The translations under genes were made by a program, and so were the position numbers. From Bacteroidota bacterium (GTDB lineage Bacteria > Bacteroidota > Ignavibacteria > Kapaibacteriales > UBA2268): 42,033 nucleotides of DNA. The DNA lies in the NCBI GenBank assembly GCA_024278075.1, contig JAJRTW010000240.1, forward strand, positions 1 through 42,033, read 5' to 3'. The notes under the pieces are model-generated. The model ran no database searches, was not told the origin of the DNA, and was given only the letters and a program-made list of their open reading frames with translations. Positions 7,874 through 37,688 of the stretch are shown here, one piece after another; position 1 is the first letter of the stretch, and each line of letters opens with the position of its first letter.

Positions 7874-9298
7874 CTACCATTCCGAGCCATTCTTCAGGTA
7901 TTCATCAATGGCAGATGCAGCAACCCTGCCCGCACCCATCGCAAGAATCACCGTAGCTCCGCCGGTAACGATGTCGCCGCCTGCGAATACACCCTTCTTA
8001 TTGGTTTTCATCGTAGATTCGTCAACGAGAATATTGCCCCATTTATTAACTTTAAGGTCGGGAGTGGTCTGATTGATAATCGGGTTAGAGCCGTTGCCGA
8101 TAGCGACAATCGCCACGTCTACATCCACCTCTTCGATAGCACCTTCGATAGGAACGGGACGGCGTCGGCCCGAAGCATCCGGCTCGCCAAGCTCCATCTT
8201 CTGCAGCTTCATCGATTTCAGCCAGCCGTTTTCATCGCCCTTGAACTCCAGCGGGGAAGCCAGCAGGTGGAATTCGATTCCCTCCTCCTTGGCGTGTTTG
8301 ATTTCCTCTACCCTTGCCGGCATTTCGGCTTCTGTGCGCCGGTAGCAAATTAATGCCCGTTTAGCACCCAGCCTTTTCGCCGTCCTCACGCCATCCATAG
8401 CAGTGTTCCCACCGCCAAAAACAACAGCATTCCTGCCCTTAATATCATACATTGGAGTATCGTTATTCGGGAAATCATAAGCCTTCATCAGATTCACACG
8501 CGTCAGGAACTCGTTGGCCGAATAAACGCCATTAAGATGTTCGCCCGGGATGTTCATAAAGTAGGGCAACCCGGCACCAACGCCAATAAACACCGCATCG
8601 AAATTATCGAATAATTCGTCTACGGTCTCGATTCTGCCGATAATATAATTGGTCTTGAATACGACGCCCATTTTCTCGAGCGCCGTCACCTCGGCCTTAA
8701 CTATGTCCTTTGGCAGGCGAAATTCGGGAATGCCGTAGATCAGCACTCCGCCAATGTCGTGAAGAGCCTCGAATACCGTCACCTCATGCCCCATCTGAAC
8801 CAAATCGCCAGCACAGCTTAGGCCTGCGGGGCCGCCGCCAACGATGGCTACCTTTTTGCCAGTCTTATCTTTCAGCTTCGGCGGGTTGAACCCAACGTTC
8901 TCTCTTTCCCAATCGGCAGCAAACCGCTCGAGGTTCCCGACGGCAACGGAAGTGAATTTCTTTGTCAGCACGCAAACCTGCTCGCATTGCTCTTCCTGTG
9001 GGCATACCCTGCCACACACAGCTGGCAGAGCATTGTCCTGCTTCAATATTTCACCAGCTTTGCGGAAATCGCCTTCGCGGATTGCCATAATAAATTCAGG
9101 GATTTTCACCCTGACAGGGCATCCGTCCACACACAATGGCTTCTTGCATTGGATACAGCGGTTTGCCTCTTCGATGGCCATTTCGGCCGTATATCCGAAG
9201 TTAACTTCCGTGAAGTTCTTATTTCTTAATTCAGCTTCCTGCTCCGGCATCCCGTGACGCAGGATTTTCATTCTTTCCTTATTTGTCAATTCAGTCAT
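7874..9298 (-). CDS. nfnB: NfnB / GltD-like NADPH-dependent FAD oxidoreductase subunit
   Basis: N-terminal 4Fe-4S cysteines CIQCKKPLCVDGCPV...CGRVCPQEEQCEQVC; GGGPAGLSCA; GGGNTAMDGVRTAKRLGA; overlaps the upstream NfnA gene by 8 bp. Confidence 0.9.
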   Translation of the reverse strand: MTELTNKERMKILRHGMPEQEAELRNKNFTEVNFGYTAEMAIEEANRCIQCKKPLCVDGCPVRVKIPEFIMAIREGDFRKAGEILKQDNALPAVCGRVCPQEEQCEQVCVLTKKFTSVAVGNLERFAADWERENVGFNPPKLKDKTGKKVAIVGGGPAGLSCAGDLVQMGHEVTVFEALHDIGGVLIYGIPEFRLPKDIVKAEVTALEKMGVVFKTNYIIGRIETVDELFDNFDAVFIGVGAGLPYFMNIPGEHLNGVYSANEFLTRVNLMKAYDFPNNDTPMYDIKGRNAVVFGGGNTAMDGVRTAKRLGAKRALICYRRTEAEMPARVEEIKHAKEEGIEFHLLASPLEFKGDENGWLKSMKLQKMELGEPDASGRRRPVPIEGAIEEVDVDVAIVAIGNGSNPIINQTTPDLKVNKWGNILVDESTMKTNKKGVFAGGDIVTGGATVILAMGAGRVAASAIDEYLKNGSEW

Positions 9299-23805: not shown

Positions 23806-23851
23806 CTATTAATCTTATTTCAATTGACAGCTAACGACTAAAAGCTATCGT

Positions 23852-23930
23852 CCAGCGACTTTCGACCAGCAACTATTGTCCAGCGACTATCGACCAGCGA
23901 CTTGTGGCCAGCGACTTGTGGCCAGCGACT
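23852..23930. repeat. 14-bp tandem repeat (ccagcgacttgtgg-like) x ~5.6
   Basis: ccagcgactttcga / ccagcaactattgt / ccagcgactatcga / ccagcgacttgtgg x2 / ccagcgact. Confidence 0.9.
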
Positions 23931-24033: not shown

Positions 24034-25782
24034 ATGAAAAGAACCGAAGAATTATATCGCCAGCTTAAAAAAAGTCAATTGATAGCGCTCCTATCGCCGG
24101 CAAGCCCCGAGCAGTGCGTGGATGCCTACGAAATACTGAATCCATATAACATTACACTCGAAATTGCTTTCAGAACTAAATATGCCCTAAAAGGGATTGA
24201 AGCAATCATCGAAAAACACCCCGAGGCCCTGCTGCTGGCCGGCACTATAATGACAGCCAGGGATGCCAGGGATGCAATCGAAGCCGGTGCGGCCGGGATC
24301 GTATCGGCGGATTATATTCTTTCCGTCACCGATGTCTGCGTTGAGAACGACATAATGTATATCCCGGGCGGGCTGTCCGACGCCGGCAAACAGCTTGCAC
24401 AAAAGGCCGCTCTCTACGGCTGCGGCCTGAACGAACTTATGGTGAAATATCCCTATCAATGGATCTATAAATTGTTCCCGGCAATTACATCGGCAACATC
24501 AAATGCGGAAATTGCCCGGGCGTGGAAAGAACCATATAGTGATTTATCTGTGGTTTATACCGGCGGCGTTAGCGAAGACAACTTGCAGGAATTATTAACC
24601 GTTGACCCGAAGGGAATATTCTGCGGCTCTGCATTAACCAGAAACATCGACAATCCTGCGCTAATGAAAAAAAACATTGAAGCATGGATTGAAATAGTGG
24701 AAAGCCAAAAGAAGCATAAAATGGATTCTACTAAAAGAATTTACCGGAAAAAAGAAGATATTAAGAAGATAATTACTTTTGGCGAAATAATGCTCCGCCT
24801 GTCGCCTCCGGGCCATCAGCGGTTTATTCAGGCAAGAAGCTTCGATGCCTCGTTCGGCGGTGCCGAGGCCAATGTTGCGGTGTCATTGGCAAATTACGGC
24901 CTGAACTCCTATTTCGTAACGGCCGTGCCCGGCAATGAACTTGGCTCTGCTGCGATTAATGCAATACGGAGTTTTGGGGTCAAAACGAAATATTGCATCA
25001 GTAATGACAACCGCCTGGGCATATATTTCCTGGAAAACGGCGGTGCCCAAAGGCCGTCGAAAGTAATTTATGACCGCAAACGAACAGCTATCTCCAAAGC
25101 GCTGCCCGGGCAGATCGACTGGGACGCTGTCTTTAAAGATGCCGGGTGGTTTCATTGGTCGGGAATAACGCCGGCACTTAGCCATTCGGCTGAAGTTGTT
25201 ACCCGCGAGGCACTTAAGGCTGCCAGCAAGGCAGGTGTTACAATCAGTGTTGACCTAAACTACCGCCAGAATCTGTGGCCGCAGGAAAAGGCATGTGCTG
25301 TTATGTCGGGGCTTATGGAATATGTTGATATATGCCTATGCAACGAAGAGGATGCCGAAAAGGTATTTGGTATCAAGGCCGAATCGTCGATTGTAGCTTC
25401 GGGGAAATTGGTTGTGAGCAGCTACAAAGACGTTGCAACTCAACTTGCCAACAGGTTTGATTTCAAGAAAGTGGCAATCACTCTGCGCGAAAGCATAAGT
25501 GCTTCTGATAACAACTGGTCTGCCTGCTTATACAATGGGGATAAATTTATGACAAGCAATAAATATAAGATGCATATTATTGACCGCGTTGGCAGCGGCG
25601 ATGCCTTTAGTGCCGGACTTATTTATGGAATAGTCTCCGGCTTGCCGGACAGCGAAGCATTGGAATTTGCTACGGCCGCAGCTTGCCTGAAGCATACTAT
25701 TCATGGCGATTTCAATCTTGTTACGGCAGAGGAAGTAGAGAGATTAGCGGCTGGAAACACAAGCGGCAGGGTTGTTAGGTAG
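24034..25782 (+). CDS. Fusion: KDPG aldolase-like (N-term) and PfkB-family 2-keto-3-deoxygluconate kinase-like (C-term)
   Basis: Aldolase: LEIAFRT, AGTIMTARDA, YKLFPA; kinase: FGEIMLRLSPPGHQRFIQA, FGGAEANVAVSLA, IDRVGSGDAFSAGLIYG. Confidence 0.9.
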   Translation: MKRTEELYRQLKKSQLIALLSPASPEQCVDAYEILNPYNITLEIAFRTKYALKGIEAIIEKHPEALLLAGTIMTARDARDAIEAGAAGIVSADYILSVTDVCVENDIMYIPGGLSDAGKQLAQKAALYGCGLNELMVKYPYQWIYKLFPAITSATSNAEIARAWKEPYSDLSVVYTGGVSEDNLQELLTVDPKGIFCGSALTRNIDNPALMKKNIEAWIEIVESQKKHKMDSTKRIYRKKEDIKKIITFGEIMLRLSPPGHQRFIQARSFDASFGGAEANVAVSLANYGLNSYFVTAVPGNELGSAAINAIRSFGVKTKYCISNDNRLGIYFLENGGAQRPSKVIYDRKRTAISKALPGQIDWDAVFKDAGWFHWSGITPALSHSAEVVTREALKAASKAGVTISVDLNYRQNLWPQEKACAVMSGLMEYVDICLCNEEDAEKVFGIKAESSIVASGKLVVSSYKDVATQLANRFDFKKVAITLRESISASDNNWSACLYNGDKFMTSNKYKMHIIDRVGSGDAFSAGLIYGIVSGLPDSEALEFATAAACLKHTIHGDFNLVTAEEVERLAAGNTSGRVVR

Positions 25783-32931: not shown

Positions 32932-35316
32932 ATGAAATTAATTTATGATTTATTAACAGAGACAGCTATGCACAAATATTTGCAATTATTTATTACTACT
33001 ACATTATTTACCATAATATTATTATCGGCAGCAAATAATTCATCTGCTCAAACATCCGCAATTCCCAAAGCTAAATACATAGAATTGGCTCGTGCAACTG
33101 CCGATTGGGCATGGGATCATAAGGATTCGCTGGTTAATCGATGGCGTAAGTCTTTAGACCCAAAGTATATATTCGGATACCGCCCGCCCCAGATGCTTCT
33201 CGATATGGCTGCGGTATATGCCATGCTGTTTGATATTAATGACAATTTCGATAAAAAAAGCAATATTGAATTCGCCACGAGAGCCAAGTCGGTTCTATTG
33301 ACTTTTGGTGACTATAGAAAACAATATCCAAAGGAAGCCGCCGCCCAAAGGCCGGATTATGAGAACGGAATTCCGCCATTGACCGATTTCTTTACCACCA
33401 TGATGTATATCCGGGCTTTTGATATATTGAACCGCCACGGCTTGCTTGATAATAACGAAAAAAAGATAGCTACGGATATAATAGTTGAAAGTCTTGAATA
33501 TACTATGCGGCTGCAGGAATGGGGGGCGATGAACCGCTCGGCGCTGAGGGCCGAAACGCTTGCATGGGCAATAAGGGCGCTGCCGGACAATCCGAATGCG
33601 AAAACATGGGGAGTATATGAGCAGGCACTCGGCTCGGACAATTGGGGCAATTGGGAGATCGAGGATGCTACTTTATACCATGCCGTCTGGCTCTATTCGA
33701 TGATGGGATATGCCGATGCTAAGAATCAGATGAGGGAGCTGTTTCGTACTCCCGAGATGTATTATTACTCTCAATATTTCCTGAATTTAATGTGTCCGGC
33801 TCAAATGATTCCTGATTTTGGTGATTCACACTGGACGTCGAATTGGGCAAGGTTTATGGTGTTTTTCGAATGTGCTGCGAATCAATACAGCGACCCCGAA
33901 TTGAAGTGGGCGGCAGCGGTAATCGGCAATAAATTTATTGATTTTTAAAATATCACTCAAACCTGGCTGGCCTATCTTCTAATAGACAGCTACCGCTATT
34001 CGACTGATGATTTAATACCAAAACCACCCATTTCGCTTAGCCGGGAAGTGATGGAGGATGTGCAGGGCAAGAAGATAGTATTCCGCAGCGGCTGGGATTC
34101 CTTATCGACTTATATGCTTCTGAATTACCGCGATGAAGGCGACGGCGGCCTGCTGTTCAGAGATTACCTTCGCGATGGGATAGCTGTAGAGGAAGAGAAA
34201 ATGACTCACGGCCATGCCGACGAAAACAGCATACCCTTGCTGATGTACAAAGGCTCGGTGCTGCTGCACGACGGCGGATACCGCGATATGATGCCAAGCG
34301 GTATGTTCGGCGCCTACCGGCAGGATTATTTCCACAACCGGCTTTGCGTGCGGGGCGAGAAAATCTGGATGGGCCAAAAGAAAGGCCAGTACCGCTACAG
34401 CCCGTCGGATCATCCGGAAATTCCCGGGCAGTCAGTCCTCGATTTTCTGCATAATGCCGGATCGTACAGGAAAATCCGCACCCAAAAGATAGATTTCCTT
34501 ACATTTGATGATTTCGACTATAGCCGGACGCGGCTTATCGATGATAAGTTGGGGTATGAATGGGACAGGGTTATTACTTATGTGAAAGACCCCGAGATGT
34601 TCGTGGTTTTTGATATTGTGAAAGCAACCGAAGTAGGTTTTCTCACCGCATCCAACCTTTGGCATACACGGAAAATCCTCTCTCGGGGCGAGCATTGGTA
34701 CGATACGGCCTACGACTCGCTTAACACATTTGCCACTTCAACCGACAATAACCTGCTGATTTATTTCCCCATGACCCACTACCGAATTGAGCAGTCCGAA
34801 CAGGCCAACAGGTATTACCAACAGGAATACGTAATCTCGCAAACCACCGCCCAATATTTTGAATTGGGGCAATATGTCAGCTTTGTGACGATACTGATTC
34901 CCCACCCCGCAGGCGAGGACCCGTCCGGCTGGCCGAAAAAGATAAGTATGGTTCAGTCCAAGCCCGAAGGGAAAGGCATATCCGTAAGGATAAATCATAG
35001 CGGCAGAGAAATAAACATTGGCGTCAAGTGCGATATGAGGATGGACATAATCCGTGATTACCGCAGGCCTAAATACACCTATGAATCCGGCAAGCTCGAA
35101 TTCGGCAAACTTGAGACGAACGGAGATTTCTTCTATACGGAACGGGCCGGCGATATGTTGAGTTTTACGGTTGTCAACCTGTCGAAAGCATTTTACGACG
35201 GCAATGTTCTCTTTGAGCAGCCAACCGGCTTTTATGGCCTTGCCTTCGACGGCAGCTCCGATCAGTCCGGCATCGGCAAGGCCCGCTATTGGCGGGATGA
35301 GATTAGGCTGAAATGA
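32932..35316 (+). pseudogene. Secreted heparinase II/III-like polysaccharide lyase, interrupted by in-frame TAA at 33946-33948
   Basis: ORFs 32932-33948 and 34048-35316 share a frame; between them NITQTWLAYLLIDSYRYSTDDLIPKPPISLSREV; C-part has MTHGHADENSIPLLMYKGSVLLHDGGY; signal peptide from MHKYLQ (32968). Confidence 0.8.
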
Positions 35317-35380
35317 AATATCTATATATTTGATAAATATAATCTTTTTTCGTTTACTGCAGGTTACTTTATTGACTGTC

Positions 35381-35932
35381 AATAAATGAGAAGCTATTTT
35401 GATTTATACATGTATTATTATCGCCCGTCATTCCGAATGTAATGAGGAATCCAGAGTTAATAAGGTTATATCATCATTAAGATGGATTCTTCGCTCCGCT
35501 CTGAATGACTATAATAAATATTTTATCATACAATGAAGATTTCTGATGGCCGGATTAAGAAATATTATCATAGATCAGTGGTGTTTGGATAATAAATGAG
35601 AAGCTATCTTGATTTGTACTTGTATTATTATCGCCCGTCATTCCGAATGTAGTGAGGAATCCAGAGTTAATAAGGTTATATCATCATTAAGATGGATTCT
35701 TCGCTCCGCTCTGAATGACTATAATTAATATTTTATCATACAATGAAGAAATCTGATGGCCGGATTAAGAAATATCAACAATTATCAGTGGTGTCCGGAT
35801 AATAAATGAGAAGCTATTTTGATTTATACATGTATTATTATCGCCCGTCATTCCGATAGTAGTGAGGAATCCAGAGTTAATAAGGTTATATCATCATTAA
35901 GATGGATTCTTCGCTCCGCTCTGAATGACTAT
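35381..35932. repeat. 210-bp tandem repeat, ~2.6 copies
   Basis: 'aataaatgagaagctat' starts at 35381, 35591 and 35801. Confidence 0.95.
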
Positions 35933-35940
35933 ATTTAATT

Positions 35941-36040
35941 CATATTCAGCTATAATCTATTCATATTCAGCTATAATCTATTCATATTCAGCTATAATCT
36001 ATTCATATTCAGCTATAATCTATTCATATTCAGCTATAAT
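35941..36040. repeat. 21-bp tandem repeat array 1 (catattcagctataatctatt), 5 copies
   Basis: Unit starts 35941, 35962, 35983, 36004, 36025. Confidence 0.95.
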
Positions 36041-36097
36041 TAATATTACTATCGTATCGACAAACCTTCATTTATTATCCATAATCATATAATATAA

Positions 36098-36240
36098 GCC
36101 AGAAATGTTCATCGTAAGGCCAGAAATGTTCATCGTAAGGCCAGAAATGTTCATCGTAAGGCCGGAAATGTTCATCGTAAGGCCGGAAATGTTCATCGTA
36201 AGGCCAGAAATGTTCATCGTAAGCCTGAAAATGTTAAACC
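36098..36240. repeat. 21-bp tandem repeat array 2 (gccagaaatgttcatcgtaag), 6 copies plus one degenerate
   Basis: Unit starts 36098, 36119, 36140, 36161, 36182, 36203, 36224. Confidence 0.95.
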
Positions 36241-36264
36241 GGAGGCATTATTGACCATTTATTA

Positions 36265-36402
36265 ACGTTAGATGAGGATTTCTTATCATTAGATGAAGAT
36301 TTATTAACGTTAGATGAGGAAGAATTATCATTAGATGAAGAAGAATTAACGTTAGATGAGGAATATTTGTCGTTAGATATGGATTTATTATCGCCAGATT
36401 AA
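36265..36402. repeat. 21-bp tandem repeat array 3 (acg/tcaTTAGATGAGGAxxxTTA), 6 copies plus a terminal partial
   Basis: Unit starts 36265, 36286, 36307, 36328, 36349, 36370; reads (T/S)LDE(D/E)xL repeated, ending SPD*. Confidence 0.92.
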
Positions 36403-36494
36403 GAAAAATCATGGGTAGGAATCAATGCCGGAATCTTAACTCTAAAGCGCCTATGGAATAAAATCAAGGATTTGTCGTCCGCCGCCGGTTTGGC

Positions 36495-37688
36495 TTAAGC
36501 ATTAAAATCATCATACAATTCAGAAACAGCAATGCCGCCAATAGTTGTCTTTTCGCGGGTGTATTTCATCATCACATCATTCATAGCCCCCTCGAGTTCA
36601 TCGGATTTTATGCCGTAGCGAATCGAAGACCACGCCTCCATGAAAGCCGCCAGATCGTCGGAGGCCTTGACTATTTCACCATCGTAGGGGTCGAACTGAT
36701 CGTCGTTGTACTTATTATTAATCTTAATGCTCGGCATAGGGGACTTATAGTTTATCTTGCTTGCGAATTCATTGTGCGTAAAATTGCGTATCTCCGGCAT
36801 CCATTCGGGCTCGAGATGCGGATATATAAGTTCGGCCGAGAGCTTCTCCTCGATTCGGCTAATCTGCTCGGACATGCCCGGCACTTTCCGCTTAAGCGGC
36901 GAGATGATGTCGCGTGTGACAGCTTCGGGCAAATCATGCAGGAGTCCGCCAAAAAAGTTGTTATATATGCGTTTGGGAGCCGGAGAATATAATTCAAGAG
37001 TAAATAAATATGAGACAACGGCGACGAATAGCGAATGCCCAAGCACGGTCGTAGCCGGCACTCTCGGCAATTGTCCCCACCTGACCTGGTAACGCATCTG
37101 CCCGCAGAGGTCAATAAAGTTTTTGATCTTACCACGTACGTTTATCTTCCTGATTCCAAGCAGACTTTCGTATTGTTTTATGGAATTCATCAGCGAATTC
37201 TCGATTTCCTCGATTTGGTAGTCATCGACGTTGATATGTTTAATAATCCGGAACTCCCAAAAGCTGGCATAGATATGCGAAGCGTCGAGAATCTTCGTAG
37301 CAAGCGGCTGGATTATCGCCGGATTGTGGAGATACTCCCCGAATTGACGTTTTAGCATTTCATTTCCAATTTTTTTGTTTATCTCATCCCAGACCCATTG
37401 GTTCAGTTGAGCGAGCAGCTTGCGGTTTTTCTCAATCTCGCGGAACACCGGCCGCTGTATGTCCGATATAATTATTCTCCGCAACAGTTCGAATATGCCG
37501 CCCTTTATCAGATCATTCCAATCGACTTCATTTCCTGCCATTTCCTCGTATTTTCCGAGGCAATAGGCGATTATCATCTTGTGGGCGTGCTTGTCCATTT
37601 CGATCAGTTCTATCGGGCGGAGCTTGTCGTTCCACCTTTGTATGGAAAAGCCCTTGAACAGCACTTCTAATAATTTCCGGTTAATCAT
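36495..37688 (-). CDS. HD-domain (YfbR-like) predicted phosphohydrolase
   Basis: TTVLGHSLFVAVVSYLFTLEL...NNFFGGLLHDLPEAVTRDIISPLK. Confidence 0.8.
   Translation of the reverse strand: MINRKLLEVLFKGFSIQRWNDKLRPIELIEMDKHAHKMIIAYCLGKYEEMAGNEVDWNDLIKGGIFELLRRIIISDIQRPVFREIEKNRKLLAQLNQWVWDEINKKIGNEMLKRQFGEYLHNPAIIQPLATKILDASHIYASFWEFRIIKHINVDDYQIEEIENSLMNSIKQYESLLGIRKINVRGKIKNFIDLCGQMRYQVRWGQLPRVPATTVLGHSLFVAVVSYLFTLELYSPAPKRIYNNFFGGLLHDLPEAVTRDIISPLKRKVPGMSEQISRIEEKLSAELIYPHLEPEWMPEIRNFTHNEFASKINYKSPMPSIKINNKYNDDQFDPYDGEIVKASDDLAAFMEAWSSIRYGIKSDELEGAMNDVMMKYTREKTTIGGIAVSELYDDFNA

Follow-up and report, generated by a model that had tools for sequence, protein, structure and literature searches.

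Tandem arrays of unrelated units with a common 21-bp period in intergenic DNA of a Bacteroidota genome and its relatives

Introduction

Minisatellites in bacteria are commonly regarded as neutral products of slippage whose length is arbitrary. In plasmid iterons and operator arrays the sequences differ from replicon to replicon, the spacing is about two helical turns and protein is bound on one face of the DNA; iterons are situated at origins, beside the gene for the cognate initiator. The closest known kind of element to those described here is the BrickBuilt MITE minisatellite of Porphyromonas gingivalis, which is intergenic and dispersed, with 19 copies and a 23-nt unit (PMC4596501). Heptamer repeats with the sequence TAACTGA are found in Beggiatoaceae, Cyanobacteria and a few Bacteroidetes (PMC4679880). 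A literature search, mostly outside subscription papers, gave no report of a lineage-wide 21-bp rule.

The locus described here lies in a window of 42,033 nucleotides (the whole stretch of DNA analysed, contig C207) of a Bacteroidota genome of 3.74 Mb in 275 contigs, which we refer to as the own genome (G000). An initial annotation of the window had reported a 210-bp tandem repeat followed by three unrelated arrays, all with a 21-bp period, and had offered two helical turns, seven codons, or a slippage or recombination mechanism as candidate causes.

Results

Tandem Repeats Finder recovers the 210-bp repeat and all three 21-bp arrays, agreeing with the initial annotation to within a few bases. 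Within the 210-bp unit (35381–35939; 2.7 copies, 94% match) lies a dispersed imperfect palindrome, GTCATTCCGAATG..GGAATCC..GGATTC..GAATGAC, and parts of the unit have matches at some 40 sites of the own genome. In the form GTCATTCCGAATGTAGTGAGGAATCC..GGATTCTTCGCTCCGCTCTGAATGAC the dispersed imperfect palindrome is seen at 35420–35940 of the window and at about 40 genome sites, and several loci of a relative, G009, have a similar palindrome in arrays of 42-bp period. The unit length is 10 x 21, a relation that the initial annotation did not mention and that may be a coincidence. Array 1, on the plus strand at 35938–36040, consists of 4.9 identical copies (100%) of the 21-bp unit TCATATTCAGCTATAATCTAT. 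It is followed, on the same strand, by a spacer (36041–36097), by array 2 (36098–36235; 6.6 copies of the 21-bp unit GCCAGAAATGTTCATCGTAAG, 95% match), by a second spacer around CCGGAGGCATTATTGACCATTTATTAACG (36236–36262) and by array 3 (36257–36399), in which TTAACGTTAGATGAGGATTTA and TTATCATTAGATGAAGAAGAA alternate. Array 3 can be read as 6.5 copies at 21 bp with 76% match (36257–36393), although Tandem Repeats Finder scores it better as 3.2 copies at 42 bp (81%). It is open in one frame, which would give an LDEDLLS repeat, without a start codon ahead of the array. An Rfam scan of the window gave no match.

The flanking genes point towards each other, as annotated. The right one (36495–37688, minus strand) has an HD_3 / YfbR-like domain; for the left one (34048–35316, plus strand, 422 aa) we find no Pfam family, and its naming as a lyase is therefore not confirmed. 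The convergent setting is not essential, and we reject it as a cause, as similar arrays sit mostly between tandemly oriented genes. The further array that had been placed at 23852–23930 is present at 23845–23930, with a period of 14, 28 or 42 bp and 79–84% match. This diverged array of the CCAGCGACTTTTGA type lies just upstream of a KDPG-aldolase/PfkB fusion gene at 24034 and scores best at 42 bp, with two copies only at that period.

Arrays 2 and 3 belong together as a composite element that has conserved spacers and occurs at five loci of the own genome (C207, C127, C189, C134 and C262). The description of the three arrays as unrelated is correct for their raw units, which have no significant pairwise match, but not for arrays 2 and 3 as adjoining modules of one element. 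A core shared directly by these two arrays was considered and dropped as not significant; the link between them is positional, through the composite element. At C127 (7919–8317) all three arrays occur in the same order, beginning with a second copy of array 1 at 7919–7988; the spacer between arrays 1 and 2 is almost unchanged there, while copy numbers differ. An array of type 2 followed by one of type 3, with a recognisable spacer, is seen at C189 (on the minus strand), C134 and C262, the spacer being conserved at C127 and C189 and present in a diverged form at C134 and C262. Relatives of array 2 occur at C127, C178, C89, C134, C189 and C262, and at C178 and C89 array 2 stands on its own, with a leader, ATATATTTTG, that recurs at C134 and C262. 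The elements at C134 and C262 are 73% identical over 392 columns (E 6e-69) and, judged by this alignment, are clearly copies of one element. There are, then, several intergenic copies with a conserved non-repeat leader or spacer, as in a MITE that carries a minisatellite. Several of the palindromic-repeat sites (C207, C127, C134, C188, C196 and C262) also have arrays with a 21-bp period no more than about 1.5 kb away.

A preference for 21 bp is seen in G009, which belongs to the same family and another genus, and from which 447 kb were picked blind, by contig number only. Among its non-coding arrays (periods 5–59), 21 of 26 have a period of 21 or 42 bp, with about 18 different units, and 23 of its 29 long arrays are multiples of 21. 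None of the non-coding arrays has a period of 14, 28 or 35 bp, so that multiples of 7 are not supported as a general rule. For the own genome, an enrichment seen in our first sample was discarded, as it was biased by contigs chosen through hits. Once the hit-found contigs are left out, multiples of 21 make up 7 of 39 long arrays, or 3 of 25 if one keeps strictly to the blind part; the latter is not significant, and young arrays in this genome have many periods.

A second test, which is free of sampling, counts the word GGAAA occurring three times at a fixed spacing in the whole genomes of 126 members of the order. There are 247 matches at 21 bp, in 30 of the 126 genomes, compared with 16 in 6 genomes at 22 bp. 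The 21-bp matches include 26 in the own genome (at about ten loci), 84 in G009, 25 in G118, 23 in G013 and 12 in G120, none of which has a match at 22 bp. The blind G009 sample and the spacing test thus bear out the idea that 21-bp periods are in excess although the units are unrelated; in the own genome the spacing test supports it but blind sampling does not. Over ten array-rich genomes we count 204 matches at 21 bp, 29 at 20, 5 at 18, 15 at 15 and none at 22, the 18-bp control being informative because 18 is also a whole number of codons. Of the 20-bp matches 27 come from G104, and all the 15-bp matches come from a single genome, in each case nearly all from one repeat family. With the control word AAAGG, which is GGAAA reversed, the result is alike: 95 matches at 21 bp and 5 at 22. 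The effect of spacing is therefore general rather than bound to GGAAA, although G009 further favours GGAAA over AAAGG (84 versus 6).

Taxonomic spread was assessed by word-spacing counts rather than full repeat spectra. On this measure a phylum-wide draw of 398 genomes gave genomes with several matches in further families of the class (G491, G399 and G174 among them), together with 7-bp GGAAANN arrays, coding-looking heptads and single chance matches. Heptamer arrays of the GGAAANN kind (GGAAAGT, GGAAATT, GGAAATC) are found in the more distant relatives G439, G455, G357, G308 and G379. In G104 a dispersed 20-bp minisatellite, GGAAAAGCAATTATATAATC, is present on about ten contigs (C1, C27, C55, C63, C118 and others) beside 21-bp relatives. 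This genome offers a natural comparison of 20 with 21 bp and, as it amplifies the 20-bp family freely, the period of 21 is not absolute.

The sequence of the unit can change while the period is kept. The array-2 units of C134 and C262 (GAAATGTTCAACGAACGGAGA and GAAAAAGCTCAACTGGCGATG) are identical at 7 of 21 positions and are both 21 bp long; between the two copies the unit has been exchanged and the period has not. Switches of unit are also seen within continuous, indel-free arrays at C196, C85 and C241, although these examples were found by gapless detection, which is biased towards such cases. The 15 units at C196, each made up of TTCCCG and a variable rest, shift from TTCCCGTGCTGAAAAATACTC to CAGAAGCCCTTTCGAATGCCC; at C85 CCTAATTA is retained while the remaining 13 bases are exchanged, giving two different rests; and at C241 the register is held over 26 units despite strong divergence. 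With gaps allowed (Tandem Repeats Finder, G009), indels are found in 5 of 28 imperfect arrays with periods that are multiples of 21, compared with 9 of 14 others. One G009 unit matches one own-genome unit by way of two compensating one-base indels, both units being 21 bp, a case that is illustrative and not a test, since 21-mers alone were compared. Only 18 of 2485 unit pairs exceed the 99.9% shuffle level, so that most arrays have no recognisable common unit. Taken together this suggests that spacing rather than sequence is preserved. In non-coding G009 DNA in which every detectable array was masked there are still peaks at lags of 21, 42, 63 and 84 (z 8.3, 5.7, 3.2 and 3.4); other lags divisible by three are raised as well, indicating a contribution from some unannotated coding sequence.

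The youngest class, that of isolated two-copy duplications, is not biased to 21 bp (3 of 30 in the own genome; lengths of 20, 20, 21 and 180 bp in G009). Multiples of 21 are commoner among long than among short arrays, both in G009 (23 of 29 versus 7 of 19, p=0.005) and, less clearly, in the own genome without hit contigs (7 of 39 versus 3 of 58, p=0.08). Among the long G009 arrays, multiples of 21 tend to be more frequent where the copies are diverged (20 of 23 diverged arrays versus 3 of 6 others, p=0.08). As two-copy duplications are not quantised whereas long and diverged arrays are biased to 21, these data, small as the numbers are, speak for 21-bp arrays being retained or growing rather than for a duplication machinery with a fixed step.

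As in iterons, the spacing is constant and of whole helical turns, being exactly 21 bp across unrelated units. A weak candidate core is seen in a subset of arrays: GGAAA/TTTCC is present in 5 of 19 G009 array units where 1.3 are expected (p=0.008), and variability in its columns is lower than elsewhere in the unit (p=0.013 in G009). The information of a weak common motif is reached, among control draws of random intergenic units, by 1 of 80 for G009 and by 0 of 80 for the own genome, where some of the arrays are related. Phasing of AA/TT at 10.5 bp is weakly above that of random intergenic units, with z 2.2 in G009 and 1.2 in the own genome. Periods of about 10 or 31 bp, the odd multiples of the helical turn, show no enrichment; a pure model of binding on one helix face might lead one to expect it, and its lack counts to that extent against such a model. 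Folding energies compared with shuffled units (mean z -0.01 and 0.13, 42 arrays) give no signal of RNA hairpins on average.

Discussion

A short core with free filler of fixed total length is what is expected for sites read on one face of the helix, and we have chosen our explanation on this ground. Tentatively, and with no great confidence, we propose that the arrays are modules of dispersed non-coding minisatellite elements held at two helical turns by a putative DNA-binding protein that reads a short core. New tandem duplications would arise through ordinary slippage or unequal recombination, with many lengths, and those that persist, grow and diverge in the lineage would preferentially be the ones with a period of exactly 21 bp or a multiple. 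As 21.0 bp is two helical turns, the short recognition core of each unit would come to lie on the same DNA face, where a putative sequence-tolerant DNA-binding or DNA-bending protein could occupy the cores cooperatively, much as at iterons or operator arrays, and the rest of the unit would be free to change provided that its length is kept. We infer the selection, its action on helical phase and the protein binding. A bolder proposal, of a genome-wide, sequence-independent 21-bp intergenic lattice in which unrelated units are kept at two turns by a putative periodic DNA-protein structure and the spacing itself is an inherited trait, seems to us rather unlikely.

The main alternative to selection is that a replication, repair or integration process makes exact 21-bp duplications of any sequence. 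Most units are indeed unrelated and yet have a common length, unrelated palindromic and CCCCCTT..AAGGGGG repeats are also arrayed at 42 bp in G009, and some long non-coding units are multiples of 21 (210 bp in the window, 231 at C40, 147 and 546 in G003). However, other long non-coding units are of 75, 77, 115, 148 and 284 bp, the isolated two-copy duplications are unquantised, and multiples of 21 are rarer among short arrays than among long ones; we regard such a ruler as unlikely. The period could instead reflect common descent only, through the neutral spread of one MITE-like family with a 21-bp minisatellite. The five composite copies with conserved spacers, the recurring leader and the frequent neighbourhood of the 210-bp palindromic unit are consistent with this, but the scarcity of recognisably shared units and the occurrence of arrays in other genera and families are not, and descent alone does not explain how a period survives complete turnover of the unit, so that we consider this account improbable. 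It is scarcely credible that the arrays are an artefact of assembly or chance. Several contigs of the own assembly do end in perfect arrays (for example C30, C93 and C63) and copy numbers of identical repeats may be wrong; yet the copies in these arrays are distinct and diverged, the arrays are found again at other loci and in genomes that were assembled independently, and the spacing test sets 21 bp sharply apart from 20 and 22. Among the contig ends within perfect arrays are L015 9387–9527 (17 bp), L022 8765–8902 (15 bp), L020 11356–11470 (17 bp), L028 1–139 (23 bp) and L056 4030–4153 (11 bp), and the assembly therefore breaks at young minisatellites, where copy numbers are unreliable.

If the arrays encode heptapeptide-repeat proteins, or did so until recently, 21 bp would correspond to seven codons. 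Some 21-bp arrays elsewhere are coding (in G002, within a 663-aa ORF), array 3 reads as a heptapeptide repeat in its open frame, and the G009 arrays have 35 open frames where about 25–28 are expected, an excess matched by about 1–2% of controls. Against this, there is no case among 42 arrays of variation concentrating at a single codon position, the own genome has no excess of open frames (29 versus 27–29), several arrays have no covering ORF, and the frame of array 3, besides lacking an upstream start, is interrupted in the C189 relative by a stop within the repeated 42-mer. The repeat peptides have no convincing Pfam or NCBIfam family, one helix-hairpin-helix match being just above cut-off. 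A stop-codon test that had appeared strongly positive was withdrawn, as its null took variants inherited by several copies as independent; the corrected null leaves only a weak excess in G009. A coding origin of the period thus seems a poor prospect. In a sister family, sixteen near-identical 21-bp units CCTCAAAAGCTTTACGGACTC lie inside an open frame at a contig start (L156 1–332, G032). CRISPR arrays were also considered and set aside, as the units here are contiguous, with no spacers; a long CRISPR-like direct-repeat array with a spacing of about 65–67 bp is present in G021 (L138 12920–19323). Among the causes originally offered, two helical turns, acting by retention, is then the best remaining reading, the duplication or slippage ruler being disfavoured and the seven codons weak.

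A lineage whose unrelated arrays arrive at a single exact period, and hold to it while the unit turns over completely, offers a natural test of whether helical phasing is under selection in non-coding bacterial DNA. The lineage points to a putative nucleoid or regulatory protein, which could be fished out with the arrays themselves.

Iterons lie at origins with a cognate initiator, whereas the present arrays occupy dozens of chromosomal intergenic sites and their binder is putative. With BrickBuilt they share a tandem minisatellite without spacers between a leader and a tail, conserved and variable positions within the unit, and a copy number that varies by locus (PMC4596501). BrickBuilt, however, is one family with a 23-nt unit, whereas in the present case numerous unrelated units occur at exactly 21 bp and one element holds two or three arrays (PMC4596501). 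Furthermore, BrickBuilt has IS5-like terminal inverted repeats, whereas neither terminal inverted repeats nor a target-site duplication are obvious on reading the present sequences, and predicted stem-loops, unlike in BrickBuilt, are absent here on average (PMC4596501). The TAACTGA repeats, too, are short direct-repeat arrays that occur in large numbers between genes and are suspected of a regulatory role, but their sequence is a single fixed one of 7 nt and frequently lies immediately before start codons, while the present arrays vary in sequence, have a period of 21 and show no association with start codons (PMC4679880). A repeat of the Borg type, with perfect units, was rejected, as in G009 28 of the 30 non-coding arrays whose period is a multiple of 21 are imperfect. 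The tandem repeats of Borgs nevertheless resemble those described here in that one genome has many arrays, in genes as well as between them, and the units are unique and unrelated (PMC9879509). In Borgs the copies are perfect and of many lengths, with 14–38% of intergenic unit lengths divisible by three, whereas in the present arrays the copies are diverged and the length is fixed (PMC9879509).
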